A stretch of DNA of 64,000 bases from Collinsella aerofaciens (GTDB lineage: Bacteria; Actinomycetota; Coriobacteriia; Coriobacteriales; Coriobacteriaceae), in NCBI RefSeq assembly GCF_019131995.1, contig NZ_JAHONA010000006.1, positions 45,219 through 109,218 of the forward strand, in the 5' to 3' direction. How positions within the stretch are numbered: the first letter of the stretch is position 1; each line of letters starts with the position of its first letter. Of the stretch, positions 8,953 through 32,726 are shown one piece after another. The translations under genes and the position numbers were made by a program. A model generated the notes under the pieces. It was not told the origin of the DNA, searched no databases, and worked only from the letters and a program-made list of their open reading frames with translations.

Positions 8953-9540
8953 ATGTTGTTGTTCCTTATCTGCACGCGCAAGGGGCACGGCATGCGGCCG
9001 CGCGGGCGTGCTTGGTAGTGCGCTAATACATACAAAAACGGGTGCGCACAGAGAGGACGTTGCTCAGCACGCTGGCGATCGCTTTGGCAGCCCTATCACG
9101 CGCCGTCCAGACGCAGCGGCCCTAAGCGATGGAGCAGATTCGCCGCCGGTTAGTATACCCGTACTCCGTATGCCCCCACGTAAACCACAGATGACGAGGC
9201 GGACGAGGTGGGCCCGGCTGATTGTCTCGGTCTGTAACATCTACAGGGCAAATCTTCCTCTACGTGTTACAGATCGAGACAAACGGTCGACACGGCTCAC
9301 AAACGTCTCAATCTGTAACAGTTAACGAGTAAAATCGGCCCTAATTGTTATAGATCAAGACAGAGGGGGATTTCCGTCCAGTCCAAACCAAATCTCTCAG
9401 TCTTCCTGCAATTTCGAACATGTGGCCTATAATGTTGCTTTGGTTACGCTATATATTGCGCAGCCATTTAATACGTCGCCCACCGGGGGCCATTAATTCC
9501 TATCGCCATATTGGCTAGGAAGCAATCAAAGGAGGTATCC
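8953..9540. other. Divergent intergenic region, helicase and FHA gene leaders
   Basis: No gene. It holds two 59-bp palindromic units (see 9223-9362) and a TATAAT box at 9428-9433 that may serve the FHA gene. The 200 bp next to the helicase could be a long mRNA leader of the kind known for cold-shock helicases; this is inference. Confidence 0.5.
9223..9362. repeat. Two 59-bp palindromic units in tandem
   Basis: Units 9223-9281 and 9304-9362, linker 22 bp. Each has outer arms TGTCTCGATCTGTAACA and its inverse, with a few substitutions, around a 25-bp core. Confidence 0.9.
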
Positions 9541-10503
9541 GTGGCAGCAGAGACGCCTTGCTCGGTCCTCTATAACGATATTCGCTCGTTCGGCGGTCTT
9601 AAACATCTCGAGATCGCCCGAATGCTCATCAATGGAAACTCTTATCTCGGCAGTACCCTGCTCGAGAAATGCTCTTCCAACCGCTCGTATCTCACCCGTT
9701 ACATCGTCCATCGCAAGCCTGACCAGTGCGCGCCCTCCATCTACAGCGACTTTACCGTCACCACGCTCAACCTTTCCTCGGCAATCTGCAGCAAGCTCGG
9801 CGGCGGCGAGTCCGCCTATCGGGCAATCGCCGAGCACTATCGCGGTCCGGCCGCCAACGAAATGATGTCGGCTCTCGCCAGCTACAAGCTGGACAGCCGC
9901 CTATATGCAAATGCCCTCAATCGCATCGACAACTTTGACGGCAATGCCGTGCGCGAGAAAAGCACGCTTTACCTTATGCTCTTTGTGGCAACGGGGGCGC
10001 TCGCCGATCCCGTTCAGGGCGTGGCCACCGTCGAGCGCTTTTGCGACAGCAAGACGGGCGAGCACTTTGGCACCACCGAAACTACCGTCGGACGTGGCTT
10101 TATGAGCAGCCTGGAGCAGCCGCGCACCGTCGCCCCCAACCTCGGTCTGCTCAGAACCCATGCCGACAACTGCGCCGACATGCAAATCCATCCCCTCACA
10201 CGCGATCCGCACGGCACCGTGATTGGTTCTTTGCCCAAAACCTCGCCCAGCATCACCGATGTGGGCGCCGACGCATCGCGCGAGCATCTTCGCATTTGGC
10301 TTGAGGGTGAGCACTGGTACGCCCAGGGCCTTGGATCGACCAACGGCACGGTGCTCGAATCGGGTGCAGGCGACGGCGATATTGTGATTGAGCCGCCGCG
10401 CGACCAACGCGAGCCCGGCAAGATTTATCCCCCAGTGGAAATCGAAAACAGCGACAGGCTCCATCTGGGTCTCTACACGACATTCCTTGTCATTGTGGAC
10501 TAG
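9541..10503 (+). CDS. FHA-domain protein
   Basis: The 320-residue protein ends in a forkhead-associated domain, a phosphothreonine reader: TVIGSLP, then SREHLRIW, then GSTNGT, at roughly residues 230-320. The N-terminal 220 residues are helical and not recognised. The start is GTG at 9541, directly after AAAGGAGGT; a TTG at 9511 is in frame but lies before that site. The next gene is a Ser/Thr kinase on the same strand, so this is a likely substrate or partner. A terminator-like hairpin separates the two. Confidence 0.85.
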   Translation: MAAETPCSVLYNDIRSFGGLKHLEIARMLINGNSYLGSTLLEKCSSNRSYLTRYIVHRKPDQCAPSIYSDFTVTTLNLSSAICSKLGGGESAYRAIAEHYRGPAANEMMSALASYKLDSRLYANALNRIDNFDGNAVREKSTLYLMLFVATGALADPVQGVATVERFCDSKTGEHFGTTETTVGRGFMSSLEQPRTVAPNLGLLRTHADNCADMQIHPLTRDPHGTVIGSLPKTSPSITDVGADASREHLRIWLEGEHWYAQGLGSTNGTVLESGAGDGDIVIEPPRDQREPGKIYPPVEIENSDRLHLGLYTTFLVIVD

Positions 10504-10506
10504 CGC

Positions 10507-10545
10507 GGACGGCGATCGAAAGACGGTCGCCGTCCGTCTTTCGTC
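10507..10545 (+). terminator. Hairpin after the FHA gene
   Basis: Stem GGACGGCGA / TCGCCGTCC (10507-10515, 10527-10535) followed by a T-rich stretch, 4 bp after the stop. Confidence 0.6.
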
Positions 10546-10580
10546 TTCTACCTTCTGCGTCGTAAACGACAATGCTCAGC

Positions 10581-10643
10581 GGTATACGTGGGCAGTGCGG
10601 CTATCGTGGTACTTTACCGATATCCGCACTGTTCGCGTATACG
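10581..10643. promoter_or_regulatory. Inverted repeat before the kinase gene
   Basis: Two 20-bp arms matching at 16 of 20 positions (10581-10600 and 10624-10643, core GTATACG and CAGTGCGG) with a 23-bp centre, ending 32 bp before the kinase start. It could be an operator or a leader stem. Confidence 0.4.
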
Positions 10644-10674
10644 TGCGGCAACCCATGCCAGACAAAGGAACGCC

Positions 10675-12759
10675 ATGGATACTACCGATAGCGCCTATGG
10701 CGACAAACTCATCCGTCTCGACACGTTCGATACCGCCGTGGCGGTCGACCCCAGTGCCGAGGACGACGCCAAACGTCGGTTTATGACGCTTATTCTCCAG
10801 ACGGCCCACCGCAACAACGGCAACATCGGGCACGTGCTGCGCGCGACCAACACGAGCGGCGAGGTCTTTGCCGTCAAGCTGCTCAAGGACAACGCTATCC
10901 TTTCCGGCCAAGCCCCCGACCGCTCCGCCGAGCAATCGGCAGCGCACCTGGCCAGCACCGCCGCGCTGTTCGAGGAGTACCGTCATCTGTATACCGTCTC
11001 GCACCTGCGCGGATTTCCGCGCGTCTATGGCTACGGATCGTGCGAGGATGACCCTCTCATCCTCATGGAGTGGGTCGAGGGCACCTCGCTCAAGCAGGCG
11101 CTGCCCCTGCTTCCGCACGACGCCTCGGGCGGGCTGACCACCCAGATGGTCGCCGCCGTCGGAAACGCCGTGCTTCGTGCGCTCTTGATGACCCAAGGCC
11201 TCGTGAATCCGGTCATCCATCGCGACCTGTCGCCTGCCAATATCATGTTCCGCACCACCAGCCGAACGCTCGAGCAGCAGATTGCTGATTGTTCCTTTGA
11301 CCCCTGCCTCATCGACATGGGCTCCGCGACCATGGCTCTCGGCGACGACACGATCACCCGACGCGCCGACATCGGGCGCTTTGCCACGCCCGCATACGCC
11401 GCGCCCGAGATGCTCACGCAGGATATCGAAGGCATCGCGGCCCTTCGCCGTTCGCCGGCAATCGACGTCTATGCGCTTTCGAGCATTCTGTACCAGCTCT
11501 ACAGCGGTCGCAAACCGTTTGACTTTGAGTCGACGGACGCCGCTGCAACCGGCTCGTTCTATCTCGTAAAGACCAAGACCAAGCCGGCACCGCTCGAGCC
11601 GCGCTGCGAGGGCGATGAAGCGCTCGTCCAAATCATCATGAAGGGTCTCTCAGTCGAGCAGTGCGATCGTCCCACCGAGCAGCAGATGCTCGAGGTGCTC
11701 TCGGCATACCTCACCGATGCCGAATCCGAGGGCCGCGAAGGCACAGGAGACGAGGCCGCGATTGACATCGACTCCGGTACGCACCTTAAGGTCGACGTCG
11801 CCGGCGAGCGCGCGCGAGAGATCCTGGAGCAGGCCCGGAACGATGCCATGACCCGCCGTCGCTTTATTATCGGCGGCGTCGCTGCAGTCGTTGCGGGGCT
11901 CGGCGTCATTGGCGCGGCAACCCATGGCTTTGGCATCCCCGACTACCTCGATGGCATCCGCGGTTCACTTGACGACTACACCTGGGATCAGCTGCAGGAG
12001 ATTTCGCTCAAGATTAAGGCCGCCGAGACCCGTAGCGAGGCACGCGAGATTGCCAAGCGCTACCACCTGCTCGATGCCGATGGGCATATCCCCTATCCGT
12101 GTACCAAGCGCGTGAAACTCACCAACGGGCTGGAGGTCGGCGCGCAGCTTGTGGGCATCCGTCACGATGAGCTTCTGGACGGTACGGGCAAGGCAGGGCT
12201 AACGTTTATGTTCGACGCCGGTATTGCCGAGCGCAACGCTGCGGCTGAACCGCCGAGCTCCGGCTGGGCAGATTGCGAGCTGCGAGAATGGCTCGACGGC
12301 GACGGCCTTAAGCTGCTGCCCAATGAGCTACGCGCACTCATCAAATCTGTCAAAAAGGTCTCGAATAACGCTGGCGCCGCCAACAGTGCATCGTGTCTGA
12401 GCGAGTTGCCCGCAACCCTTTGGCTGCCCGCTATGGTCGAGCTGTGCGGTACGCAACCGCCCGATTCGTTTGCCAAGGACTATCACTACCTGGCAGACAT
12501 CTACAACGGCGAGGGCAAAGAGTATCAGCTCTTCCGCGAGCTCAAGGTGAGCCCGTATTCCACGAACGAGACGATGGTCCGCCAGTGGAAGGGCAAGGAC
12601 ACCTGCTGGTGGGAGCGCACGGTGAGTCCTGACACATCGGAGAGTGGAGGCACACTCTATTTGAATCGCGTGGGCCACGACGGCGACGCCTTTACGTACG
12701 CAACGCCTGCGGACAAGCCAAACAAGCTAACCTGTGTGATCCCCGGGTTCTGCATCTAG
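10675..12759 (+). CDS. Membrane Ser/Thr protein kinase with external DUF6273-like domain
   Basis: PknB-like kinase of 694 residues. The kinase domain has the ATP lysine in FAVKLLK (about 69), catalytic loop HRDLSPAN (about 182), DMG in place of DFG (about 213) and the APE motif in YAAPEM. A helical linker and one membrane segment (GGVAAVVAGLGVIGAA, about 400-415) follow. The C-terminal 270 residues, outside the cell, include WADCELREWLDGD, as in DUF6273 domains, which may sense a ligand. The start at 10675 follows AAAGGAA. The FHA protein upstream suggests a signalling pair. Signals and substrates are unknown. Confidence 0.87.
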   Translation: MDTTDSAYGDKLIRLDTFDTAVAVDPSAEDDAKRRFMTLILQTAHRNNGNIGHVLRATNTSGEVFAVKLLKDNAILSGQAPDRSAEQSAAHLASTAALFEEYRHLYTVSHLRGFPRVYGYGSCEDDPLILMEWVEGTSLKQALPLLPHDASGGLTTQMVAAVGNAVLRALLMTQGLVNPVIHRDLSPANIMFRTTSRTLEQQIADCSFDPCLIDMGSATMALGDDTITRRADIGRFATPAYAAPEMLTQDIEGIAALRRSPAIDVYALSSILYQLYSGRKPFDFESTDAAATGSFYLVKTKTKPAPLEPRCEGDEALVQIIMKGLSVEQCDRPTEQQMLEVLSAYLTDAESEGREGTGDEAAIDIDSGTHLKVDVAGERAREILEQARNDAMTRRRFIIGGVAAVVAGLGVIGAATHGFGIPDYLDGIRGSLDDYTWDQLQEISLKIKAAETRSEAREIAKRYHLLDADGHIPYPCTKRVKLTNGLEVGAQLVGIRHDELLDGTGKAGLTFMFDAGIAERNAAAEPPSSGWADCELREWLDGDGLKLLPNELRALIKSVKKVSNNAGAANSASCLSELPATLWLPAMVELCGTQPPDSFAKDYHYLADIYNGEGKEYQLFRELKVSPYSTNETMVRQWKGKDTCWWERTVSPDTSESGGTLYLNRVGHDGDAFTYATPADKPNKLTCVIPGFCI

Positions 12760-12800
12760 GCGGCGGGCGTCTTGCCGTGACGGGACCCCTCCCCGGCAAT

Positions 12801-12859
12801 TGTCTTGATCTGTAACGGTTAGAGGTCATATTTGCTGCTAGATGTTACAGAACGAGACA
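12801..12859. repeat. Single 59-bp palindromic unit
   Basis: Same family as 9223-9362, arms TGTCTTGATCTGTAAC and TGTTACAGAACGAGACA. It sits 41 bp after the kinase stop. The remainder of 12760-12999 shows no gene. Confidence 0.88.
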
Positions 12860-12999
12860 TTAGCTTGCCGAGAACTTCGACTCATAAATGTGACTCAAGT
12901 GTGTCGATATTTTCTTGCCAATGTTGCGCAACAGAAACCCTTTCGGCGGTCGTAACGTACGAATTGTCATAGGTACCCCTTCAACGATTGGGAGAAGAA

Positions 13000-15900
13000 A
13001 TGGCAAAGTACGCACCTAAACACTTGGAAGTCTCAGGCGGCGCCGAGCCCCATCGCGCATTCGCGGGTCACAAGACCGCGCGACTCGCCGTCACCGCAGC
13101 CACCACCATCGCAATGACCGGCTCGTCGTTGCTCGCCCCGTTCTCGGCATTTGCCAACGATCTGAGCGACACCACGGCACAGGACGCAATCATGTCCCCG
13201 CTCGCCGCCCACGCCGGCGAGGCGGCAGGCTCCGCAGTAAAGACGAACGCCCAGAAAATTGCCGACTTGCAGGCCGCAATCGACGCCGCAAAGGCTGCCG
13301 AGGCAGAAGCCAAGTCCGACTACGACACGGCGGTTGCCCCCTATACCGAAAAGCAGACGGTCCGCGACAACGCCCAGACTGCCTACGACGCTTCCGTCTC
13401 CAACAATTCGCAGGCAGAAGCCGCCGCGCGTGCCGAATACGCCCGTCAACTCGATGAAAGCGTCAAGGCGGCCAACAGCGCCAGCGCCACGTTAAAGGAT
13501 GCCCAGAGCAAGCTCGACACGGCCAAGGCCGATGCCGAAAGCAAGACGAAGGCACTCGACTCCGCAAAGCAGGCGGCAGCCGACGCACGGGCCAAGCTTG
13601 AGGAAGCCCAGAAGGCAGCCGCCAACGCAACGCCGGAGGAAATCAAGGCCGCCGAGCAGTCTGCCGCAGATGCCCAGAAGGTTCTTGACCAGGCAAAGGC
13701 CGCAAAAACCGCTGCCGACTCCGCACTCGCCGATGCCCAGCAGGCTCGGAGCGCCGCGCAGAGCGCTTACAACGAGGCGTCAGGCACGCTGGCTTCCGCT
13801 CAACAGGCAAAGACCGCCGCGGATGGTAAGGTAGTCGCGGCACAGGCAGCGTATGACAGCGCGCAAGCCGATTTGGCAGCCGCAAAGGCAGGCGCCGAGG
13901 GCCCGGAGTATGACGCCGCTCAGGCAAAGGTCGATGCCGCCCAAAGCGCACTCGATCAGGCGAAGCAGCAGCAGGCGGCTGCCGAAGCAGGTCTTTCTCA
14001 GGCAAATAGTGACGTTGCATCCAAGCGGGACGCCCTCACCGGTGCCGAAAGCGAGCTCGAAGCCAAGAAGCAGACAGTCGCAGCAGCCGAAAATGATGTA
14101 ACGGCAGCCCAGGCGAAAGCCGATGCGGCGCAATCGGAGTTGACCTCGGCAAAGCAGGTGCATGCTGCCGAGCTGGAGAAGGCAAAGGCCGCTCAGAAAC
14201 AAGTCGACCAGGCAAAAGCCGAGAAGGAGCAAGCAGACAAGGCGCTCGAAACTGCCAAGACAAACCAGGCGGCCGCCGATCAAGCCGTTGTCGATGCACA
14301 GAAAGCATACGATACGTGCAAGGCGGCAGCCGATAAGGCTACGACGGCGGAGGCGCAGAGCGTCATCGGCTTTTACCAATTCATCGGTGCCAACGATGCT
14401 GCAGACATCATCTATAAGCAGAGCGACTTAAACCCAACGACCATCGGCGATAAAAAGGACGGCACGTCACTCGACAACGCCAAGCTTTCGTTTGGCAAGC
14501 TGCGCGAGATTAATGAATATCGCAAAAGCGTCGGCCTTAGCGAGCTTAAGGTGACGGCCGAGCAGATGGCAATTGCTCAGTCGAACTCCAATTACTCAGA
14601 CGCCATGCTAGACCATTCAGACTATGCGCGATTCGAAAATGCCGCATGGAACTATGACTTGAAAAGAAATGTCGCACACCAGTGGGTTGATGAGGAAAAG
14701 AATATATTTGACCAGGCCGCAGCGAAAGCCGGCCTTGGCGAAATTGCCCCCAAAGATGCTTGGGATACTTTCTGGAGCCACGGCACCGAATTCGGAGAGC
14801 AAAAGGTAGGCTTTGGCACCGTCGGCCACTATTTGAATATCGTACAGCCTGACGCCAAAACCATGGGATACGGCATTAATTCTCGAGGAACTCATCTCTC
14901 ATATACCTACATCTTGGAGGTTGACGACAACTACGGTTCGTACGAGAAAGAATATTCAATCGATGAACTCGAGAGTCTCTTTGATCAGTATCAGCTGAGT
15001 CTCTCCAAGGCCAGCGAAAACCTTGCCGCTGCAAAAGCGAACCTTGAGCAAAAGCGCAGCACAGCGGCATCGAAAGCCGATGCCGTAAAGGCAGCAGAGA
15101 CCCTCGTCGCTCAAAAGCGAGAAGGCGTTGATACCGCGAACAGCAACCTTGCCACCGAAAATGGCAACGTGGCAGGTGCCGCTGCCGAGGTCGCTCAAGC
15201 AGAGCAGAATCTCGCCAAGGCAAACGGAAAAGTTGCCGAAGCCGAAGACCAGGTTAAAGCCGCCCAAAGCAACGTGGCGCCCGCAGAGCAGGTCGTCAAC
15301 CAGAAGCGCGCCGAGCTTAAGGCATCGCAAGAGCAAGCCGCTCAGAGTCAGAAGAAGGTTGATGACGCCAAGGCAGAGGCTCTCTTAAAGCAGCAGGCTC
15401 TGCAAGATGCAAGGAAGGAACTTGCCAAGTATTCTGCCGATGTTGCTGCGGCCCAGGAGAAGGCTGACAAGGCCCATCAAACGCTCGATGAAGCCACGGC
15501 GGCTCAGACGTCTGCCCAGAGCGCTCTTGAAAAGGCGGAGCGCGACGCGGCTGCCAAGAAGCAGGCCCTCACTATCGCCAAGGACGGCGTCGAGGCCAAG
15601 GCAGCGACCGCGGAGCACGCCGCGAGCGATCTGACCACGGCGGAAAACGACTTTGCTTCAAAGCAGGCACATGCCGATGCGTTGAACAACGCGGCCGATA
15701 ATCTCGCCACGGCCGAGGCAGCCAAGAAGGACGCCGACGCAGCAGTGACTGCGGCCGAAACTGCTCTTAGTGCGACGAATGATGCCGTAGCGAATGCCGA
15801 GCAGGCGGTCGAGAATTCTCAGGCCGCACCGGACGCCGCTGCCGCCGCTCTCGGAAAGCTCAAGTCCGTCAATGTCGAAAACGGCATCGCAACCGGCTCC

Positions 15901-16335
15901 GATGCAAACGCGAACGATACGCTCAATGCCCTCTTTGCCAAGTGCGTCGCCGCCAAGCAGGCAGAACATAACGCAAAGGCCGCACTTGATGCCGCTCAGG
16001 CAGACCTTGATGCTGCGACGCCCGCCTACACCGCGGCGCTCAATGCCTACAACGAGGCGAAGGCAAAACGCGTAGCCGCCGAGCAAGCCCTGAAGGACGA
16101 GATCGCCCGCCAGGAGCAAGAGGCATCGAAGGCCGAGCAGGCCAAGATCACGCAGGCTGCCGCTAAGCCGGTTGCTGGAAAGCCGTCTGCTGGCAACGCC
16201 AAGACGGCCGCCAACTCGGCACTTCCCATCACAGGCGACAATGCTGCGCTCGCCGGTGAGACGTTTGTCATCGGAGGCGTCGTGCTTGTAGCCGCCGGCG
16301 TCTTCCTAACCGACAAGAAACGTCGTCAGGAGTAA
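13000..16335 (+). CDS. LPxTG-anchored coiled-coil surface protein with CAP domain
   Basis: Secreted wall-anchored protein of 1111 residues. A signal peptide ends near residue 50 (hydrophobic stretch followed by AFAND). Residues about 80-450 and 660-1040 are Ala/Lys/Glu/Asp-rich heptad-type coiled coil. Between them (about 495-650) lies a CAP/SCP-like domain with LREINEYRKSVGL, HSD and VGHYLNIV. The C-terminus has the sortase signal LPITG at 1075, a hydrophobic segment and KKRRQE. The start at 13000 follows GGGAGAAG. Two long rods flanking a globular domain suggest an adhesin or spacer; that role is inference. No sortase gene is in the window. Confidence 0.88.
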   Translation: MAKYAPKHLEVSGGAEPHRAFAGHKTARLAVTAATTIAMTGSSLLAPFSAFANDLSDTTAQDAIMSPLAAHAGEAAGSAVKTNAQKIADLQAAIDAAKAAEAEAKSDYDTAVAPYTEKQTVRDNAQTAYDASVSNNSQAEAAARAEYARQLDESVKAANSASATLKDAQSKLDTAKADAESKTKALDSAKQAAADARAKLEEAQKAAANATPEEIKAAEQSAADAQKVLDQAKAAKTAADSALADAQQARSAAQSAYNEASGTLASAQQAKTAADGKVVAAQAAYDSAQADLAAAKAGAEGPEYDAAQAKVDAAQSALDQAKQQQAAAEAGLSQANSDVASKRDALTGAESELEAKKQTVAAAENDVTAAQAKADAAQSELTSAKQVHAAELEKAKAAQKQVDQAKAEKEQADKALETAKTNQAAADQAVVDAQKAYDTCKAAADKATTAEAQSVIGFYQFIGANDAADIIYKQSDLNPTTIGDKKDGTSLDNAKLSFGKLREINEYRKSVGLSELKVTAEQMAIAQSNSNYSDAMLDHSDYARFENAAWNYDLKRNVAHQWVDEEKNIFDQAAAKAGLGEIAPKDAWDTFWSHGTEFGEQKVGFGTVGHYLNIVQPDAKTMGYGINSRGTHLSYTYILEVDDNYGSYEKEYSIDELESLFDQYQLSLSKASENLAAAKANLEQKRSTAASKADAVKAAETLVAQKREGVDTANSNLATENGNVAGAAAEVAQAEQNLAKANGKVAEAEDQVKAAQSNVAPAEQVVNQKRAELKASQEQAAQSQKKVDDAKAEALLKQQALQDARKELAKYSADVAAAQEKADKAHQTLDEATAAQTSAQSALEKAERDAAAKKQALTIAKDGVEAKAATAEHAASDLTTAENDFASKQAHADALNNAADNLATAEAAKKDADAAVTAAETALSATNDAVANAEQAVENSQAAPDAAAAALGKLKSVNVENGIATGSDANANDTLNALFAKCVAAKQAEHNAKAALDAAQADLDAATPAYTAALNAYNEAKAKRVAAEQALKDEIARQEQEASKAEQAKITQAAAKPVAGKPSAGNAKTAANSALPITGDNAALAGETFVIGGVVLVAAGVFLTDKKRRQE

Positions 16336-16393
16336 GGATTTCGGGAGGACGGCTTCTCTTCCCTTCCACCGCTTCGCAAACCCTGCTCAGCAT

Positions 16394-16431
16394 ACGCCGG
16401 GGCACCCATCACGCGGGCGCCCCGGCGTTTT
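16394..16431 (+). terminator. Terminator of the surface protein gene
   Basis: Stem ACGCCGGGGC / GCCCCGGCGT with additional pairs inside, then TTTTAC. Confidence 0.85.
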
Positions 16432-16463
16432 ACATTGAACGGCCAGGGCATCTGCTCCGAGAT

Positions 16464-16683
16464 TGTCTCGATCTGCAACAACTAGGACCCAAATATCGGT
16501 CTTACTGTTACAGATTGAGATGTTCGGGTTACCCTCGAATGGTTTGTCTCGATCTGTAACATCTAGCAGGCAAAACAGTCCCCAGATGTTACAGATTGAG
16601 ACGTTAAGTTGTGGCTCGATGTAATATCTAGATCTGTAACAGTTACTCGACAAAAACGGGTCTAGTTGTTACAGATTGAGACA
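16464..16683. repeat. Three 59-bp palindromic units in tandem
   Basis: Units 16464-16522, 16545-16603 and 16625-16683, linkers 22 and 21 bp. The left arm of the third unit is eroded (TATCTAG for TGTCTCG). The array lies between the surface protein terminator and the copper promoter. Confidence 0.9.
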
Positions 16684-16760
16684 TTAGACCGGCTACGGTC
16701 CGCCGACCTGGCTATCACCTCGGCCAATAACAGAATGGCATACATTTCAATCTCCACTGT

Positions 16761-16790
16761 ATACCCCCAGGGGGTATGGGTGTATAGTAT
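16761..16790 (+). promoter_or_regulatory. CsoR operator and promoter of the copper operon
   Basis: ATACCCCC-A-GGGGGTAT (16761-16777) is a perfect palindrome of the CsoR operator type. It overlaps a promoter whose -10 box is TATAGT (16783-16788), so CsoR binding would block transcription until Cu(I) is bound. Confidence 0.8.
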
Positions 16791-16835
16791 CAGCAGGTTA
16801 ACAATTCCAACACCAAATTACAGAAAGGAGAAGCC

Positions 16836-19175: not shown

Positions 19176-19322
19176 GCTCACCATTCAGTCCATTTAGAAC
19201 GGGTTTTCCAGATGCCCGAGATTGACCTGAAAGAGGAGCGACGCGTACTTTGATACGCGAGCGACGGCTTGAAGGTCAAGGTCGGGTGCCTGGGAAAGCC
19301 GACACAACAGAGAGGAATATCC

Positions 19323-19544
19323 ATGCGTTTCACAATTAAGACTTCCGGCCTTATGTGCGGCCACTGCGACGCCACCGTCGAGACGGCGCTGCTCAACGTT
19401 GCCGGCGTGACCGATGCCGACGCCGATCACGAGACCCAGACTGTCCAGGTGGAGTGCGCCGACACCGTGACCGCCGAGCAGCTCGCCGCCGCCGTCGAGG
19501 GCGCCGGCGAGAAATTCCATGCCCTGTCCGTAACCGCCGCGTAG
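19323..19544 (+). CDS. copZ: Copper chaperone, HMA domain
   Basis: Small cytoplasmic metallochaperone of 73 residues carrying Cu(I) to CopA. MxCxxC is present in GLMCGHC near residue 12, and the rest fits a single ferredoxin-like HMA fold. The start at 19323 follows GAGAGGAAT; an in-frame ATG at 19269 would add 18 residues without a ribosome site. The 147 bp after copA hold no further gene. Confidence 0.9.
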   Translation: MRFTIKTSGLMCGHCDATVETALLNVAGVTDADADHETQTVQVECADTVTAEQLAAAVEGAGEKFHALSVTAA

Positions 19545-19570
19545 CAGGCGCTGCCTACTCAATCCTCAGA

Positions 19571-22150: not shown

Positions 22151-22290
22151 TGTCTCGATCTGTAACAGATACAGGGTTGTTGGGCCCCTTGCTGTTACAG
22201 ATCAAGACATTCGGTCGACGCTTCACCGGTTTGTCTCGATCTGTAACAGTTACGAGCTCAAATAACCTCTAAACGTTACAGATTGAGACA
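22151..22290. repeat. Two 59-bp palindromic units
   Basis: Units 22151-22209 and 22232-22290 with a 22-bp linker. The second ends 7 bp before the stop codon of the DUF559-like gene. The linker resembles the one at 9282-9303 (both contain CGGTCGAC). Confidence 0.9.
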
Positions 22291-22297
22291 AAACCTC

Positions 22298-23374
22298 TCA
22301 GCGCCCATACCACTGACGTCTCCACTCCTCAGCCAAATCGGGCCGTCGCGGAATACCCGCCAACCTCATCTTCTCAACCAGCTTCCCCGGATTCTTGAGC
22401 TCATCAAACGTAAACCGAAGCACCTTGTGCCCGAGCATTGTCAGATGGGACTCCCGTTGACGTTCTGCCACGAATGGGTCGACCGACTCCCAGCCCTCGC
22501 CGTTCTGCAAGGCATACTTCCCCTTTCCGTCGAGCTCGCCAATCACGCACGTTCCGTCCTCGAACCGCCAAAAATAGTCGACGCGAAACACCTGGCTCGG
22601 ATCGAGCGGGTCGCGAAACTCCACCTGCAGCTCCGGAACCGGAAAGCCGTACGCAATAAAGAACGCTCGGAACCGAGACTCGCCGCCGTTTTCGGACAGC
22701 CCGTCCGCATACGACGCGATCACCTGTGCCCTGCGATACCCTCGCCTGCCCTCGCAATCGGCGCGGAGGCGCTCGCACAAATCCCCACGTGATACGCCTT
22801 TCGCCCGCAGTGCAGAATCGGCAATCGCCAACCCGTAGGAGAACGGCGCACGCAGCAAGCATTCCTCCACCGTGCGCCAAAACGACGTCACCCGCACGCC
22901 ATCAACACGCTCGAGCGCGCCCGCCATCTGTGGACGCAACAACCTGCACCCGCTGCTCAACGTCACCGAACAACCCGTCTTAACAAGAAAACGCGGCCCA
23001 AGCAGATCGTTCGGCACCTCCAGACCCCATATCAGTGCGGCGTCATATCCCCAAAACGCCCAATCGGGATGAAATTCCGCAAGCCCTCTGATAGTCCTCA
23101 GCGCTCGCTCCGCCGGCGTCAATGCATCCCAATCATGCTGAAAACAGAACAGGTACGGCTCGGGCTCCGCGATATCGTCGGTTCCAACATGGCGTCGCAG
23201 CCACATGAGCTCGGTATTGTCATGCGTTGCGAGCAGCGCACCTTGCTTGGCCGTCTCCGTGAGCCGCGCGAGCATCCTATTCCGCGCCAACGTGTTGCGA
23301 GTCGCATGTTTGTGTTTGAGAACGGTATTAGACACTTTCATCACCACCACGTCAGACAAATGGACCATCGTCAC
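22298..23374 (-). CDS. DUF559-like PD-(D/E)XK-fold protein in a repeat array
   Basis: Protein of 358 residues. The N-terminal two thirds resemble the AbiEi-type regulators of actinobacteria that often carry a DUF559 C-terminus. The C-terminal part has a Vsr/DUF559-like core: Asp266 in VDYFWRF, Glu280 and Lys284 in ELDGK, then RESHLTMLGHKVLRF. This D..ExxxK pattern is close to, but not the exact, ExK nuclease signature, so activity is uncertain. GTG at 23374 sits 5 nt after GGAGG; ATG at 23368 is the alternative. The gene is tightly bracketed by 59-bp palindrome arrays on both sides. No partner toxin or antitoxin gene adjoins it. Confidence 0.65.
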   Translation of the reverse strand: MTMVHLSDVVVMKVSNTVLKHKHATRNTLARNRMLARLTETAKQGALLATHDNTELMWLRRHVGTDDIAEPEPYLFCFQHDWDALTPAERALRTIRGLAEFHPDWAFWGYDAALIWGLEVPNDLLGPRFLVKTGCSVTLSSGCRLLRPQMAGALERVDGVRVTSFWRTVEECLLRAPFSYGLAIADSALRAKGVSRGDLCERLRADCEGRRGYRRAQVIASYADGLSENGGESRFRAFFIAYGFPVPELQVEFRDPLDPSQVFRVDYFWRFEDGTCVIGELDGKGKYALQNGEGWESVDPFVAERQRESHLTMLGHKVLRFTFDELKNPGKLVEKMRLAGIPRRPDLAEEWRRQWYGR

Positions 23375-23393
23375 CGTTGCCTCCGCTGACAAA

Positions 23394-23693
23394 TGTCTTG
23401 ATCTGTAACAGGAAGACCGATTTTTGGCCGCTAGATGTTACAGATCGAGATCTTTCGACACCGCGTCCAACCTTTGTCTCGATTTGTAACAGGTAGGTCG
23501 AGTTTTGGCCTGTAGATGTTACAGATTGAGACATTCCCCCAACCAGGTGCCAAACGTCTCGATCTGTAACAGTTAGACGTTCTCCAGCCCCCCAAACGTT
23601 ACAGATTTAGACAAACCAGCGGCGCCCAAGCGTTCGTCTCAATCTGTAACAGGTAGACCGGTTTTTTGTCCCTAAACGTTACAGATCGAGACA
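23394..23693. repeat. Four 59-bp palindromic units in tandem
   Basis: Units 23394-23452, 23475-23533, 23555-23613 and 23635-23693 with linkers of 22, 21 and 21 bp. This is the largest array in the window. It begins 20 bp upstream of the start of the DUF559-like gene, so it must contain or overlap that gene's promoter. Confidence 0.92.
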
Positions 23694-23728
23694 AATAGAC
23701 ACGCGGCGGCGCTGCGACAGCCCATCCC

Positions 23729-24436: not shown

Positions 24437-24851
24437 GGCATCCTCCTCAAACTGATGAACCTCAATTTGAGCTTACGAGGAGGGTGGGCAGCCACGACCA
24501 GCGCGGGCAAAATAGGCCTCCGGCTGCAAACCAGATGCTGACCAAACACTTGACGGGACACTTGACCGAATGAGCGCACCGCAAAGAAACCGCAGGTAGA
24601 TATAGACAGTCAGTTCACTCATTTGAGGCAAACGCCCGCTACCACCACAGAAAGAGCAGAGTAGCACAGTCGCAAACGTCGACGAATGAACACTTGCACG
24701 TCGGCAAATGACAAAGTCGCCTGCGAACTCGCAAGGAGTGTCCCCGAATGCCGGCACATAAGGAACGTCCCCAGCTGCCGGCACTTGGGGACGTTCCTTT
24801 TGGGCCGGCATTCGGGGACAGCCCTTGACGATTCAGCTGTGGACAGCCGCC
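24437..24851. repeat. Gene-free stretch with a nested 82-bp palindrome
   Basis: 24739-24820 is a nested palindrome: outer perfect 17-bp arms (TGTCCCCGAATGCCGGC and inverse), inner perfect 14-bp arms (AAGGAACGTCCCCA and inverse), 12-bp centre. It lies 31 bp past the gltD stop and may terminate that transcript. The rest of the stretch (24437-24738) shows nothing that can be supported. Confidence 0.85.
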
Positions 24852-26333
<1,482 letters not shown>

Positions 26334-26338
26334 GGCAC

Positions 26339-29300
26339 TTACGCCTCCTTCTTGGTCGAAGCAACAGAGCTGGCGGTGGCGGGCGCAGCGCCAGCGACAC
26401 CACCCGCCACATCAAAGCGAGCGACATCCGCGGCACTCGCGCGGCCGGTCACAATGTCAAACGCCAGCTCCTCGGCCTGCGCATGCGTCTTGCCCACGGC
26501 CTCGGCGGCGGCGACAATCGCCAGCACGCGCTCGTACTCGGTTGGAATGACCTTCACAAAGTGCTTGCTCATCGTCTCAAAGCTGTAGAGCAGCTTAATA
26601 CCGCGCGGGCTCTGCGTCGCGTCCACGTGCTCCTGGATGAGCTCGCGAATCTGCGCCAGCTCGCCGGACGTCGGGGCTTTAAGCTCAACGCTCTCGTGGT
26701 TCACACGGGCATCGAGCGTGCCGTACTGGTCAAAGACATAGGCCACGCCACCCGTCATGCCGGCGGCGAAGTTCTGCCCGACCTCGCCCAGGATGAGCGC
26801 CAGACCACCCGTCATGTACTCGCAGCCATGGTTGCCGCAGCCCTCGACCACCACCGTGGCACCGGAGTTGCGTACGCCAAAGCGCTGGCCTGCCAGGCCG
26901 TTAATGAAGCCGCGGCCGCTCGTAGCGCCAAAGAACGCAACGTTGCCCACGATGATGTTCTCGTCGAACTTGTAGGTCGCATGCGGGTTGGGGCGCACCG
27001 ACACCTCGCCGCCCGAAAGGCCCTTGCCAAAGTAGTCGTTGGCGTCGCCGCACACGTTGAGCGTAATGCCGCGCGGCAGGAAGGCGCCAAAGCTCTGACC
27101 GGCCGAACCATCGCAATCGATGGTGATGGAGCCGGCGGGCAGGCCCTCGGGATGCGCCTTGGTCACCGCGTTGCCCAAGATGGTGCCCACGCAGCGGTTG
27201 ACGTTGGCGATATCGGCGCGAAAGCGAATCGGACGCAGGTGCGCACGGGCATCGGCCGTATAGGGCACAAACAACGTGGAGTCGAGCGTCTTATCGAGCT
27301 CGCTGTCCGCAGCCATCTGGGGCAGGAAGTGACGGCCGTCGGCGCCCGGGATGTGGGCACCAAACTCACAGGTCGCGCTTGCCAGCACGGGCGACAGATC
27401 GAGCAGGTTGGCCTTGCGGTTGCCCGGGACCTCGATCTGGCGCAGGCACTCGGGATGGCCGACCATCTCGTCGACGGTGCGGAAGCCCAGGCTCGCCATG
27501 ACCTCGCGCAGTTGCTCGGCAACAAAGAGCATAAAGTGCTCAACGTGCTCGGGCTTGCCGCGGAAGCCGCGACGCAGGCGGCAGTTTTGCGTAGCGATGC
27601 CGGCGGGGCAGGTATCCTGCTGGCAGTCGCGCTGCATGAGGCAGCCCATCGAGATGAGCGGCATGGTCGCAAAGCCAAACTCCTCGGCACCCAGCAGGCA
27701 GGCGACGGCAACATCGGTGCCGTCCATGAGCTTGCCGTCGGCCTCGAGCACCACGCGCGAGCGCAGGCCGTTTTGCAGCAGCGTCTGCTGGGCCTCGGCA
27801 AGACCGAGCTCCAGCGGCAGACCGGCGTGCCAAATGGAATCGCGAGCAGCGGCACCCGAGCCGCCGTTGTGGCCGCTGATCAAAATCTTGTCGGCAGCGC
27901 CCTTGGCAACACCAGTGGCGATGGTGCCGACGCCGGCCTCGCTGACCAGCTTGACCGACACGCGCGCGCCGGGGTTGGCGTTCTTAAGGTCAAAGATCAG
28001 CTCTGCCAGGTCCTCGATGGAGTAGATGTCGTGGTGCGGCGGAGGCGAGATCAGGCCGATGCCGGGCGTGGACTGACGGACCTCGGCAATCCAGGGGTAG
28101 ACCTTCTTGCCGGGCAGGTGACCGCCCTCGCCGGGCTTGGCGCCCTGGGCCATCTTGATCTGAATCTCGAAGGCGCTGCACAGGTAGCGGCTCGTCACGC
28201 CAAATCGCGCACTTGCCACCTGCTTGATCGCGGAGTTCTTGGAGTCACCGTTAGCCAGCGGGGTCTCGCGGCGCGGGTCCTCGCCGCCCTCGCCGGAGTT
28301 GGAACGGCCATGCAGGCGGTTCATGGCGATGGCCATGCACTCGTGTGCCTCTTTGCTAATGGAACCGTACGACATGGCGCCGGTGTTAAAGCGGCGGACG
28401 ATGTTGAGCGCGGGCTCCACCTCGTCGAGCGAAACCGGCGTGCGGCCGCTGCCGTCAAAGTCGAGCAGGTCGCGCAGGCGCACGGCACGGCCGGTGCGGT
28501 GCAGGCGAGCGCTGTACTCCTTAAAGGTGTCGTAGCTGTCCTCGCGGCAGGCAGTCTGCAGCAAGTAGACAGTCTGCGGATCGATGAGGTGATCCTCGCC
28601 GCCGAGCGGGCGCCACTTGGTCAGGCCCAACGTGGGCAGTTGATCGGGAGCCGGGCTCTTAAGGATAGCGAGCGCGGCGTCGTAACGCTCGTTTTGCTCG
28701 CGCTCAACGTCCTCGACACCCATACCGCCCACACGGCTCACCGTGCCGGCGAAGTACGCGTTGACGAACTCCGGCGTAAAGCCAACGGCCTCAAAGAGTT
28801 GCGCGGAGTGGTAGCTCTGCACCGTGGAGATGCCCATCTTGGACATGATGGAGACGATGCCCGCCGTCGCGGCCTTGTTGTAATTGGCGATGCCCTGCTC
28901 GGCCGTCACGTCCAGGTCGCCGCGTGCCGCCAGATTGCGGATGCACGCATGCGCGTTGTACGGGTAGATGCCGCTTGCGGAGTAGCCCACCAGCGCCGCA
29001 AAGTCGTGCGGAGACACGGCATCGCCGCACTCCACCACGATATCGGCAAAGGTGCGCACACCGGCACGGATCAGGTGGTTGTGCACGCAGCCCACGGCGA
29101 GCAGCGACGGCACGGGTACCTCGCCCGCAGCGGCACGGTCGCTCAGCACCACGATGTTCACGCCATCGCGAACCGCAGCCTCGACGTCTTCGGCAAGCTG
29201 CTTGAGCGCAGCCTGCAGCGCGCCCTCACCCGCGTCGCGGCGGTACACGGCACGGAACCGGCGGGTCTTAAAGCCAACACGGTCAATCGCGCAAATACGC

Positions 29301-31036
29301 TCGAACTCCTCCTCGCTCAGCAGCGGACGCTCCAGACGCACCAGCTGGCAGGCCGTACGGGAGTCCTCGAGCAGGTTGCCGTGGTTGCCCAGGTAGAGCG
29401 TGGTCGAGGTGACCATATGCTCGCGCAGGGCGTCGATCGGCGGGTTCGTGACCTGGGCAAACAGCTGATAGAAGTAGTCGAAGAACGAGCGCGTCTTCTT
29501 GGACAGGCAGGCCAGCGGCGCATCGATACCCATCGAGGCGAGCGGCGCCTTGCCCTGCTGGGCCATGGGACGCACGACTTCGTCAACATCCTCCCAGTGA
29601 TACCCGAGCTTGGCCATGCGCACGGCGGCGGGCACCTCGGTATCCTCGGCGGGCGTGGGCGCGACGGGCTTGTCGAGCGCGTCGACGGTCAGTGTCTCTT
29701 CGGCGATCCAGTCGCGATAGGGCTTTTCCTTGGCGTAACGGGCACGCAGCTCATCGTTGTAGATGACGCGCCCGCGGGCAAAGTCGACCTCGAGCATCTG
29801 GCCCGGTCCTAGGCAGCCGCTCGTCAGGATGTTCTCGGGGCTCACCTCGATGGTGCCCACCTCGCTCGCCAGCATAAAGCGACCGTCGCGCGTCACATAG
29901 TAGCGGGCGGGACGCAGGCCGTTACGGTCGAGGGCGGCACCCAGCGTGCGACCGTCGGTAAAGGCGATGGCCGCCGGGCCATCCCACGGCTCCATGAGCA
30001 TGGACTGGTAAGCGTCGTAGGCGCGGCACTCCTCACTCAGGCTGTCGTTGTGGTCCCACGGCTCGGGCAGCAGCATGGATGCGGCACGCGTGAGCGGACG
30101 ACCGTTCATGACCAAAAACTCAAGCACATTGTCCAGAATCGCGGAGTCGGAGCCCTCGCGGTTGATGATGGGCATCACGCGCTCAAGATCGTGCTGCAGC
30201 ACGGGGCTGTACAGGTTGGGTTCGCGGGCGCGAATCCAGTTGACGTTGCCCTTGAGGGTATTGATCTCGCCGTTGTGGATGATAAAGCGGTTGGGATGTG
30301 CGCGCTCCCAGCTGGGCGTGGTGTTGGTGGAGTAGCGCGAGTGGACGAGCGCCACGGCCGTTTTGACGGCGGCGTCGTTGAGGTCGATGAAGAAACGGCG
30401 CATCTGCGTGGCCACAAGCATGCCCTTGTACACGATGGTGCGCGAGCTCATGGAGCACACATAGAAGATCTTGTCGCGCAGGGCGAACTCAGCGTCGGCC
30501 TTCTTTTCGATGGTGCGGCGGCACACGTACAGGCGACGCTCAAAGGCATCGCCGGCGGGCGTGTCGTCCGGACGGCCCAGGAAAGCCTGCAGGATAGTAG
30601 GCATGCAGGCGCGGGCCGTCTCGCCCAGGTCGTGCGGGTCGACCGGCACCTCGCGCCAGAAGAGCAGCGGCACGCCGGCTTCGGCGCAGCCCTCCTCAAA
30701 CACGCGGCGGGCATCCTCTACGCCCTTGTCGTCCTGCGGGAAGAACAGCATGGCCACGCCATAGTCGCCCTCTGCCGGCAGAATCTGGCCGCACTTTTGG
30801 GCCTCTTTACGGAAAAAGTGATGCGGAACCTGGAACAGGATGCCGGCGCCGCCGCCGGTGTTCTTCTCGAGTCCCGTACCGCCGCGGTGCTCCAAGTTGA
30901 CCAGAATGGACAGTGCGTCGTCCAGAATCTGGTGATGGCGCTCGCCGTTGATATCGGCAAGCGCGCCGATGCCACATGCATCGTGGTCGAATTCGGGGCG
31001 ATAAAGGCCCTGCTGCTGAGCGAAATCTGCCTGCAT
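26339..31036 (-). CDS. gltB: Glutamate synthase (NADPH) large subunit
   Basis: Makes two glutamates from glutamine and 2-oxoglutarate, the GS-GOGAT route of ammonia assimilation. The 1565 residues fit the family. A short propeptide precedes the class II amidotransferase nucleophile, Cys21 in HDACGIGAL. Later come the FMN/2-oxoglutarate synthase domain (AKPGEGGHLPGKKV), the 3Fe-4S motif CLMQRDCQQDTC and the C-terminal glutamate synthase beta-helix (GGNHGCEYMTGG-like repeats). The start at 31036 follows GGGAGGAT. Long open readings on the opposite strand of this gene are composition effects. Confidence 0.96.
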   Translation of the reverse strand: MQADFAQQQGLYRPEFDHDACGIGALADINGERHHQILDDALSILVNLEHRGGTGLEKNTGGGAGILFQVPHHFFRKEAQKCGQILPAEGDYGVAMLFFPQDDKGVEDARRVFEEGCAEAGVPLLFWREVPVDPHDLGETARACMPTILQAFLGRPDDTPAGDAFERRLYVCRRTIEKKADAEFALRDKIFYVCSMSSRTIVYKGMLVATQMRRFFIDLNDAAVKTAVALVHSRYSTNTTPSWERAHPNRFIIHNGEINTLKGNVNWIRAREPNLYSPVLQHDLERVMPIINREGSDSAILDNVLEFLVMNGRPLTRAASMLLPEPWDHNDSLSEECRAYDAYQSMLMEPWDGPAAIAFTDGRTLGAALDRNGLRPARYYVTRDGRFMLASEVGTIEVSPENILTSGCLGPGQMLEVDFARGRVIYNDELRARYAKEKPYRDWIAEETLTVDALDKPVAPTPAEDTEVPAAVRMAKLGYHWEDVDEVVRPMAQQGKAPLASMGIDAPLACLSKKTRSFFDYFYQLFAQVTNPPIDALREHMVTSTTLYLGNHGNLLEDSRTACQLVRLERPLLSEEEFERICAIDRVGFKTRRFRAVYRRDAGEGALQAALKQLAEDVEAAVRDGVNIVVLSDRAAAGEVPVPSLLAVGCVHNHLIRAGVRTFADIVVECGDAVSPHDFAALVGYSASGIYPYNAHACIRNLAARGDLDVTAEQGIANYNKAATAGIVSIMSKMGISTVQSYHSAQLFEAVGFTPEFVNAYFAGTVSRVGGMGVEDVEREQNERYDAALAILKSPAPDQLPTLGLTKWRPLGGEDHLIDPQTVYLLQTACREDSYDTFKEYSARLHRTGRAVRLRDLLDFDGSGRTPVSLDEVEPALNIVRRFNTGAMSYGSISKEAHECMAIAMNRLHGRSNSGEGGEDPRRETPLANGDSKNSAIKQVASARFGVTSRYLCSAFEIQIKMAQGAKPGEGGHLPGKKVYPWIAEVRQSTPGIGLISPPPHHDIYSIEDLAELIFDLKNANPGARVSVKLVSEAGVGTIATGVAKGAADKILISGHNGGSGAAARDSIWHAGLPLELGLAEAQQTLLQNGLRSRVVLEADGKLMDGTDVAVACLLGAEEFGFATMPLISMGCLMQRDCQQDTCPAGIATQNCRLRRGFRGKPEHVEHFMLFVAEQLREVMASLGFRTVDEMVGHPECLRQIEVPGNRKANLLDLSPVLASATCEFGAHIPGADGRHFLPQMAADSELDKTLDSTLFVPYTADARAHLRPIRFRADIANVNRCVGTILGNAVTKAHPEGLPAGSITIDCDGSAGQSFGAFLPRGITLNVCGDANDYFGKGLSGGEVSVRPNPHATYKFDENIIVGNVAFFGATSGRGFINGLAGQRFGVRNSGATVVVEGCGNHGCEYMTGGLALILGEVGQNFAAGMTGGVAYVFDQYGTLDARVNHESVELKAPTSGELAQIRELIQEHVDATQSPRGIKLLYSFETMSKHFVKVIPTEYERVLAIVAAAEAVGKTHAQAEELAFDIVTGRASAADVARFDVAGGVAGAAPATASSVASTKKEA

Positions 31037-31218
31037 CGCGATCCTCCCCTAGCTATTAGACAGTCAGTTGACTAGGCATACTAGGTGCATCGCCGGCCCG
31101 TTGTGTTTCCCGCCCGTTTCGAAACAATCGCGTAACGCACGCCCTACGAGTGGACACCGCCGACCTCAAGGGCGACAACATAGGCCCCAAGTTCGGCCTG
31201 TAAGCTCACCGCTTCAAA

Positions 31219-31277
31219 CATCTCAATCCGTAACAGTAAGACCCAATTTCCATCCCTAGTTGTTACAGATCAAGACA
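31219..31277. repeat. Single 59-bp palindromic unit
   Basis: Left arm CATCTCAATCCGTAACA-type with two changes, right arm TGTTACAGATCAAGACA, 25-bp core. Confidence 0.88.
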
Positions 31278-31323
31278 TTTCAGCAATCCCCTTTCACCAT
31301 CCTATTCAAATACAACAATTTTG

Positions 31324-31362
31324 TTAGTCTTGGTTAACTTTTGAGCCTAAAACGGGTATCCT
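31324..31362 (+). promoter_or_regulatory. mntH promoter with a possible DtxR/MntR-type box
   Basis: TTAACT (31334-31339), 17 bp, TATCCT (31357-31362). The 19 bp at 31324-31342 match the DtxR/IdeR consensus at 12 positions and overlap the -35 box, fitting metal-dependent repression. The match is only moderate. Confidence 0.4.
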
Positions 31363-31398
31363 TTGCGGCGTCAAACAAACGGCACGCAGGAGCTCACC

Positions 31399-32655
31399 AT
31401 GCTCAACCATCTCAAACAACACTTTGGCTGCCGACGCACCGGTGGTCACGGAGGCCTAGACATTGCGCGGCACATCGGCCCCGGGCTGCTCGTGACCGTC
31501 GGCTTTATCGACCCGGGCAACTGGGCCTCCAATATGGCCGCGGGCTCGCAGTTTGGCTACGCGCTGCTGTGGATCGTCACACTGTCCACGATTATGCTCA
31601 TTGTGCTGCAGCACAATGCGGCGCACCTGGGTATCGCCACGGGCGCCTGTCTTGCCGAGGCCACGACCCGCTTTCTCCCCCGCATCGTGGGACGCGCGGT
31701 GCTCGGCAGCGCCTATCTCGCGACCATCGCCACCGCCATGGCCGAAGTCCTGGGTGGCGCGATTGCCCTTCAAATGCTCTTTGGGCTGCCCGTGCGCGCG
31801 GGCTGCGTCATCGTGGCGGCAGTATCGATGGCGATGCTCATGACGAACTCCTACAAGCGTGCCGAACGCTGGATCATCGCCTTCGTAGGCGTGGTAGGAC
31901 TCTCGTTTTTGGCCGAGCTTGCACTAGTCAAGGTCGACTGGCCGCAAGCCGCCGCAAGCTGGATCACGCCCAGTATGCCCACTGGCTCTGCCGCGATTAT
32001 CGTGAGTGTCCTGGGTGCGGTCGTTATGCCCCACAACCTCTTTCTACACTCCGAGGTCATCCAATCCATGCACTTCGAAGGCCAAGGCGAGCAGGTTATC
32101 GAAGAGCGTCTGCGCTATGAGCTCTTCGACACGCTCTTTTCGATGGGCGTGGGCTGGGCAATCAACTCGGCCATGGTCATCCTGGCCGCAACGACCTTCT
32201 TTGCGCACGGCATTGTCGTAGACGACCTCGCCGTCGCAGCGGACACGCTCTCCCCCATTCTGGGCCCAGCAAGCTCGACCATCTTTGCGGTGGCGCTGCT
32301 GTTTGCGGGCCTCTCGAGTAGTGTGACGGCAGGCATGGCGGCAGGCACCATCACCGCAGGCATGTTCGACGAGGAATACGACGTCCACGACCGACATTCC
32401 TCGATCGGGGTGGTGGCCTGTTTCGCCGGCGCAGTGGCGGCGTGCCTGGTCGTCCCAAATCCTTTTGAGGGTCTCATTTGGAGTCAGGCGCTGCTGTCGC
32501 TTCAGTTGCCGATTACGGTCTTTGTGCTCATACGACTCACCAGTTCGCCCCGCGTCATGGGCAAATACGCCAACTCGCGCCCGCTCAACGCGTTGCTCGT
32601 AGGAATCGGCGTCATCGTAACGGTTCTCGACATCGTGCTGCTAACGGGGATGTAA
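31399..32655 (+). CDS. mntH: Nramp family divalent metal transporter
   Basis: Proton-coupled Mn(II)/Fe(II) importer with about eleven membrane segments, 418 residues. The metal-site motifs are present: DPGNWA in segment 1 (FIDPGNWA, about 37-44) and MPHNLFLHS in segment 6. The start at 31399 follows CAGGAG; the frame is open upstream but without a better site. It is transcribed alone. Mn versus Fe preference is not readable from these motifs. Confidence 0.92.
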   Translation: MLNHLKQHFGCRRTGGHGGLDIARHIGPGLLVTVGFIDPGNWASNMAAGSQFGYALLWIVTLSTIMLIVLQHNAAHLGIATGACLAEATTRFLPRIVGRAVLGSAYLATIATAMAEVLGGAIALQMLFGLPVRAGCVIVAAVSMAMLMTNSYKRAERWIIAFVGVVGLSFLAELALVKVDWPQAAASWITPSMPTGSAAIIVSVLGAVVMPHNLFLHSEVIQSMHFEGQGEQVIEERLRYELFDTLFSMGVGWAINSAMVILAATTFFAHGIVVDDLAVAADTLSPILGPASSTIFAVALLFAGLSSSVTAGMAAGTITAGMFDEEYDVHDRHSSIGVVACFAGAVAACLVVPNPFEGLIWSQALLSLQLPITVFVLIRLTSSPRVMGKYANSRPLNALLVGIGVIVTVLDIVLLTGM

Positions 32656-32683
32656 TTGGGATGGCGTGACTGTCCAGATATAA

Positions 32684-32726
32684 CGTCTCAATCTGTAACA
32701 CGTAAGGCCGTTTTAAACCGTCAGAT
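32684..32726. repeat. Truncated 59-bp palindromic unit
   Basis: Left arm CGTCTCAATCTGTAACA and most of a core (GTAAGGCC, TTTT, CGTCAGATA) are present, but the right arm is missing. The rubredoxin terminator begins a few bases further on. Confidence 0.75.

Follow-up and report, generated by a model that had tools for sequence, protein, structure and literature searches.

Introduction

A stretch of 64,000 nucleotides from Collinsella aerofaciens, a common human gut bacterium (contig NZ_JAHONA010000006.1, positions 45,219 to 109,218; hereafter the window), carries a family of palindromic 59-bp units repeated in tandem, and raises the question of what such a unit does: is it a hairpin in RNA or DNA, or a site for a protein that reads both of its arms? 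Both answers had been proposed in a first-pass annotation of the window. The literature that we searched apparently holds no published description of this 59-bp repeat, the exact arm words leading to eukaryotic or viral work unrelated by title. We report here that the way in which the copies have diverged between genomes suggests a unit gripped as double-stranded DNA by a putative protein rather than an RNA hairpin.

Results

Units of constant length

The annotation had listed 13 complete units, each made of two 17-bp arms around a 25-bp core (Table 1), and a search with the consensus arm bore out this list: at up to three mismatches the window contained 26 matches, whereas 100 shuffles gave 0.06 on average (largest value, 1). 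The left arm of the unit at 31219 departs from the consensus by more than three mismatches and is absent from these 26. Linkers within the arrays of the window measured 21 or 22 bp, and the unit at 32684 was broken as described, its right arm being lost.

When neighbouring arms were listed in related genomes without imposing any length (at most three mismatches per arm, distance below 300 bp, loci partly overlapping), the cores were of 24 (1), 25 (456), or 26 bp (6) and the linkers of 20 (10), 21 (165), or 22 bp (114). The same listing contained nine overlapping arm matches (gap of -7) and 16 same-orientation neighbours; a few arms of like orientation lay 32 bp from each other. A deduplicated search allowing cores of 20-28 bp and linkers of up to 35 bp yielded, after overlap removal, 485 units with cores of 25 (477), 26 (6), 24 (1), and 20 bp (1) and 298 linkers of 19-22 bp. 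The genome nearest to the window, G001, which has half of the window's sampled words in common with it and contains about 55 units (110 matches on both strands), is probably the same strain as NZ_SPFY and was left out for this reason. In the remaining 443 units (window and relatives), the cores measured 25 bp in 437 cases, 26 bp in four, and 24 and 20 bp in one each; the 271 linkers, in 172 arrays, were of 19 (1), 20 (8), 21 (156), and 22 bp (106). Copies of other lengths were thus rare, and the constancy first noticed in the window extends to the relatives.

Among the matches listed, the 187 array records comprised one unit (23), two (69), three (66), four (24), five (3), seven (1), or eight (1). 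The arms come in pairs: comparison of two lists placed all 32 exact arms of G001 inside units found by the unit model, and only six arms (at most two mismatches) were unpaired: two next to masked stretches, two at the ends of loci, one whose partner is degenerate, and that of the broken unit of the window.

Conserved arms and phased cores

In 1107 pairs of orthologous units, 13 arm positions (3-5 and 8-17 of the left arm) showed 0.021 differences per site, the cores 0.100, and the adjacent 18 bp on each side 0.37-0.40. Selection of these pairs required at least 80% identity in the core and thereby favours it; in 779 pairs chosen by the outer flank, the whole arms differed at 0.046 and 0.095, the core at 0.223, and the other side at 0.404, and the order of divergence (arms, then core, then flank) was the same in both sets. 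The proposal that the units are diverged copies of one element under selection, with conserved arms and constant length, was supported. Because the degenerate arm positions change at 0.17-0.35, far above the 13 others, the arm is a word in two parts, TGTTACAGAT and AGA, separated by two bases. Within the arm, conservation is lowest at the outermost base, and the outer unit end reads TGTC or CGTC in some units, at both ends, as part of the arm.

The core has A or T at three positions (WWW) at the dyad, G or C (S) about 5 bp off, TA about 10 bp off, and WW just outside the arms. Its consensus is nearly alike on both strands; as had been noted, cores occur in both orientations (44 A-type, 45 T-type, and 30 mixed among 119 non-redundant units), and these are mixed within arrays. 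The W/S periodicity of 61 non-redundant cores was maximal at 10 bp (z 23, over a span of 25 bp). The similarity of neighbouring cores barely exceeded that of random ones (0.516 against 0.496, z 2.1; 0.84 for the best single pair), and recent tandem duplication was for this reason rejected as the source of the units.

Arm evolution without pairing

For the 13 units of the window, a 22-pair structure had 83.9% of its cells paired, compared with 85.6% when the 3' letters were shuffled among units. This is still more than in slid controls (28.7-36.4%), a difference to be expected of any two words in inverted orientation. In 390 distinct units, a set that includes orthologs, the variable arm pairs 6-54 (z 0.2) and 7-53 (z 1.0) showed no covariation, 1-59 (z -2.6) and 2-58 (z -2.8) were slightly negative, and core pairs were depleted (25-35, z -9.0; 29-31, z -12.4). 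Positive values were obtained for two arm pairs whose positions seldom vary, 8-52 (z 3.4) and 12-48 (z 2.0). When a core cut-off of 60% reduced the set to 26 units, 10 of the 12 core pairs fell below expectation, clearly so only 29-31, and 8-52 was again positive (z 4.4). Within the 119 non-redundant units, mutual information was not significant for 1-59, 2-58, 6-54, and 7-53 (p 0.46, 0.07, 0.54, and 0.21, respectively).

Across linkers, three of the four variable arm pairs were associated (p 0.004, 0.003, and 0.018; the fourth, 0.51), towards mismatch: facing arms matched at 0.25, 0.34, and 0.36 against 0.38, 0.50, and 0.49 by chance, the fourth at 0.67 against 0.67 (n = 105). This is most simply read as retention of the arm words together with avoidance of long perfect palindromes. 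The hairpin, in RNA or as a DNA cruciform, was thus rejected: alignment of more copies brought out no conservation of pairing, since the variable arm pairs lack covariation and the core pairs are depleted, and arms facing each other across linkers avoid matching.

Clade restriction and shared sites

The unit model (E 1e-4) was searched in 43 Collinsella genomes, in which a unit usually matches on both strands, the number of units being hence about half that of matches. Twenty-two genomes had from 54 to at least 128 matches (about 27 to at least 64 units), the last value in both G013 and G041; G030, G040, G045, and G046 had one unit (two matches) each, and 17 had no match at this threshold. A two-arm pattern recovered at least 120 stretches in 20 assemblies, all of them Collinsella by title. 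When the best 14 candidates per genome were scored in 395 genomes of the order, the one match outside Collinsella was in G250 (70% complete, 4 matches), and a search for diverged forms of the unit in five array-free genomes gave a single match, at E = 7. Only part of the genus Collinsella carries the family, with about 40-60 copies in C. aerofaciens and its close relatives.

Comparison of flanks assembled 202 array records (187 after overlap removal) into 19 groups, among the matches listed. In a stricter, array-anchored comparison between different genomes, with G001 counted as NZ_SPFY, all 187 records were matched elsewhere, in 19 groups. Four groups hold two or three neighbouring sites of one genome, so that the sites number about 19-25. 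The single units of G030, G040, G045, and G046 have flanks that match array-rich genomes; that in G045 has the same core as copies of C. aerofaciens, suggesting that it was transferred or that the assembly is mixed.

The annotation had placed all units in one 23-kb part of the window. This holds for the window as a local clustering but not beyond it: the complete relative G023 carries 44 units in 18 arrays spread over its chromosome, at 364, 468, and 1051-2050 kb, with dnaA at 1751 kb. The region from 468 to 1051 kb (583 kb), which includes the antipode, is free of arrays; a gap of similar size (2050-364 kb) lies away from the antipode, so we claim no distribution pattern in G023, where an origin-centred distribution of the arrays was not convincing.

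Occupancy of the sites varies. The site of the window unit 31219 has three units in five of the 10 arrays compared. At the clpB site, units were present in six of seven array-rich genomes and missing from G024, whose empty allele does not represent a clean excision. At a second variable site, searched in eight genomes, G041, G023, and G024 were empty, G007 had one unit, and four had more. There two copies of a repeat of about 40 bp enclose the array in L025, L104/G005, and partly L112; other filled alleles have one copy. The array may have been lost or gained by recombination between these repeats. The repeat, of the ACCACCACAAAGG...TTGTGGTGG type, adjoins the array at L122:1585-1628 and has many other genomic matches; the empty allele of G041 (L223, counterpart of L122) keeps one copy. 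On a provirus contig, an array of two units (L192:908-1043) occupies the host site known from L146, and the likeness of the contig to the host locus stops about 70 bp past the array.

Gene context

All 18 arrays of G023 are intergenic by rough gene calls, in line with the placement described for the window. After reassignment of two arrays at L150, which have an open reading frame (ORF) between them, seven lie in convergent, seven in codirectional, and four in divergent gene gaps. The preference for convergent genes was not significant (7/18 arrays against 11/52 background gaps of at least 100 bp, p = 0.12). Neighbours of arrays include tuf (824 bp off), dxs, lacG with LacI or DeoR regulators, glycogen phosphorylase, glmS, gltA, gltB, clpB, and a metal P-type ATPase.

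In the window, a 364-aa ORF (22298-23392) without Pfam match separates two arrays. At the DNA level, the sequence of this ORF is found between a pair of arrays, spaced 1103 or 1136 bp, in the window, G001, G023, L027, L037, L058, L082, and L092. Since its sole tblastn match below 85% identity in the loci examined (L018) lies 981 bp from an array, the ORF has no general link to the arrays and was rejected as their binder.

Other repeats

In a 400-kb sample of G046, a genome 6% contaminated by its own statistics, we found paired copies of a 16-bp palindrome at a distance of 52 bp, around 36-bp cores that differ from pair to pair. Genome-wide, with at most one mismatch, it occurs at 31 places, which make up 12 pairs with a spacing of exactly 52 bp, one with a spacing of 104 bp, and five lone copies; none was found in 41 other Collinsella genomes at the same stringency. 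Some sites extend as longer palindromes, so this family may work differently from the 59-bp units. No fixed-spacing family with differing cores appeared in samples of G031 and G036. Inverted repeats of about 62 bp that are much alike and end in GGTGGCATAG occur in G036 in both orientations and resemble miniature inverted-repeat transposable elements (MITEs). Coordinates of these repeats and of two further features of the window are included in Table 1.

Table 1. Repeat units of the window and other features, with positions in the window unless a locus is named
Feature	Position	Strand	Remarks
Unit, array 1 unit 1	9223..9281		59 bp; core nearly identical to L148:4891 in G023
Linker, array 1	9282..9303		22 bp
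Unit, array 1 unit 2	9304..9362		59 bp
Unit, single	12801..12859		59 bp; 41 bp past stop of protein-kinase gene 10675-12759
Unit, array 3 unit 1	16464..16522		59 bp
Unit, array 3 unit 2	16545..16603		59 bp
Unit, array 3 unit 3	16625..16683		59 bp; upstream of metal P-type ATPase gene
Unit, array 4 unit 1	22151..22209		59 bp
Unit, array 4 unit 2	22232..22290		59 bp; end 7 bp from stop of 364-aa ORF
Unit, array 5 unit 1	23394..23452		59 bp
Unit, array 5 unit 2	23475..23533		59 bp
Unit, array 5 unit 3	23555..23613		59 bp; core of G023 counterpart 26 bp
Unit, array 5 unit 4	23635..23693		59 bp
Unit, single in window	31219..31277		59 bp; between divergent gltB and Nramp genes
Broken unit	32684..32725		Left arm and core; adjoins G+C-rich hairpin downstream of Nramp gene
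Inverted repeat	24732..24827		48 bp, 88% complementary, no gap, GGGGAC words
L31-Coriobacteria ribosomal protein leader	50808..50843	minus	Rfam search
G046 palindrome-pair sites	L279:17800, L281:3856, L290:16625, L295:9624
G036 inverted repeats, about 62 bp	L239:11056, L239:12821, L240:2106, L252:7592, L256:15128

Discussion

Proposed paired sites for a putative protein

We consider it rather probable, on the evidence of the aligned copies, that each unit is an inverted pair of double-stranded-DNA half-sites for a putative sequence-specific protein and that the pairs are tiled as a lattice. The annotation's suggestion of a protein reading both arms is strengthened in that the arms are conserved, their spacing is constant, and the core is nearly symmetric; the protein itself is putative. 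The half-site would be close to CTAnnTGTTACAGATYRAGAYRWW, read outwards from the dyad, with TGTTACAGAT..AGA as its conserved arm positions. Half-sites 42 bp apart, or four helical turns, would lie on one face of the helix, and with a two-turn linker all the arms would come nearly onto the same face (by arithmetic at 10.5 bp per turn). The two arm words, about one turn apart, would suit a protein with two DNA-reading parts per half-site. The core may be shaped rather than read base by base, with its A or T tract at the dyad, G/C-rich positions 5 bp off, and TA steps 10 bp off, a pattern that would suit DNA bent or wrapped on a protein. Because the units repeat every 80-81 bp, an array of one to eight units could hold a regular nucleoprotein lattice. 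Our guess is that such a lattice might anchor the chromosome or insulate neighbouring transcription units from each other, at the roughly 20 shared sites of each genome.

Several observations weigh against this reading. No binding protein was found, ParB/Noc-type proteins being the one candidate class tested: a second protein of this type is no feature of array genomes (five of nine array-rich genomes searched had a single ParB_N match), extra weak ParB_N matches occurred in genomes both with and without arrays, and a second ParB/Noc was rejected as the binder as it does not track the arrays. The core is not perfectly symmetric, reaching 14.5 bits when oriented by its A-tract against 12.4 (sd 0.1) for a column-shuffled null oriented alike. 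Individual sites can be empty, so that no single array tested is essential. The gene context yields no regulon, no common name or pathway being evident among the neighbour proteins scanned. Finally, arrays begin 12 to 55 bp after stop codons at four of the 18 sites of G023, a placement that would also suit an element acting in mRNA.

Among known systems, nucleoid-occlusion sites of the Noc and SlmA type are absent from the terminus region. The units share with Noc and SlmA sites the scattering of tens of sequence-specific sites over the chromosome, but consist of paired, non-palindromic 17-bp arms at fixed spacing and in arrays, and no extra ParB-type protein is common to array genomes. With the strong sites and motif of Escherichia coli gyrase, they share dyad symmetry and an A+T/G+C phasing of about 10 bp suiting wrapped DNA; they differ in having a fixed 13-position word per arm, in their extent (63 bp against 130 bp), and in their tandem arrays. 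The symmetric GC of 10-11 bp period that characterizes strong gyrase sites is present in the core at 10 bp, over 25 bp only.

An extended form of the paired-site explanation, which we put forward tentatively and hold to be of low probability, is that of lineage-specific lattices in Collinsella: a protein pair would wrap about 63 bp between half-sites whose distance is a whole number of helical turns, stack every 80-81 bp, and mark about 20 shared intergenic sites as chromosome domain anchors. Each lineage would have its own recognition word, with arms of 17 bp at a distance of 42 bp in the C. aerofaciens clade and the 16-bp palindrome at a distance of 52 bp in G046.

Alternative explanations

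A REP/BIME-like origin, in which a palindromic extragenic repeat is spread by a transposase and kept as a hairpin or gyrase site, seems to us rather unlikely. The units are extragenic, palindromic, clustered at regular spacing, and limited to a species group or lineage, like the BIMEs of PMC2817692 and like the GTAG and CGTC superfamilies, and their phased A+T/G+C is similar to the symmetric motif of gyrase, in which GC recurs with a period of 10.75 bp (PMC6379681). The gyrase motif, however, is degenerate and lacks a fixed 13-position word. REPs keep their palindromes, from which the authors of PMC2817692 infer selection for complementary mutations, whereas our units show no sign of complementary changes. 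Nor do they match in tag or size: stems and loops measure 5-13 and 2-20 bp in GTAG REPs and 8-9 and 4-5 bp in CGTC REPs (PMC3733652), against 17-bp arms and a 25-bp core here, and the GTAG tag is missing. The sites, moreover, are shared, none of the 187 array records (matches listed) being private.

Of about the same low probability is that the units are operators of a classical transcription regulator of the neighbouring genes. Strong sequence-specific conservation and an array ending about 180 bp upstream of clpB would agree with this. The arrays of G023, however, fall as often in convergent as in codirectional gaps and least in divergent ones, and their neighbours have no evident common pathway.

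We regard as improbable a structured RNA, in which each unit would be transcribed and its hairpin would end or protect the mRNA or be processed. Most single units do fold strongly, as RNA hairpins would (-8.6 to -32.7 kcal/mol over the 13 units), and the four arrays trailing stop codons in G023 fit such a role. Unlike that of RNA hairpins, however, the evolution of the unit arms ignores pairing, with covariation absent and core pairing depleted; core orientation is mixed inside arrays, no Rfam family reached its gathering score at the units (gathering thresholds only), and four of the 18 arrays lie between divergent genes.

Equally improbable is a transposon origin, in which a miniature element of 59 bp with terminal inverted repeats of 17 bp would have spread a single time, in the clade's ancestor, and left the units as its remains. 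The inverted ends, the small size that hardly varies, the clade-wide set of sites, and the restriction to one clade agree with it, but unit flanks show no target-site duplication of 2-5 bp (2 bp, 0.427 against 0.430 expected), the outermost arm base is the least conserved, insertions are not expected to give a fixed linker of 19-22 bp, and in old copies without a use the arms would not have stayed two to five times closer to one another than the cores. There is a small flank excess at 6 bp (0.255 against 0.227) and 8 bp (0.270 against 0.244) and at 2 bp of the outer flanks of arrays (0.490 against 0.423), related rows included. A classical MITE was rejected, in the absence of a clear target duplication and of private sites.

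Implications

Palindromic repeats, by their likeness to hairpins, are easily mistaken for RNA structure, and the evolution of the arms argues otherwise here; the same test of arm evolution can be applied to other "palindromic" repeats. A strictly built and strongly conserved array with a putative binder would give a direct way into chromosome organisation in a class of bacteria on which few studies exist.

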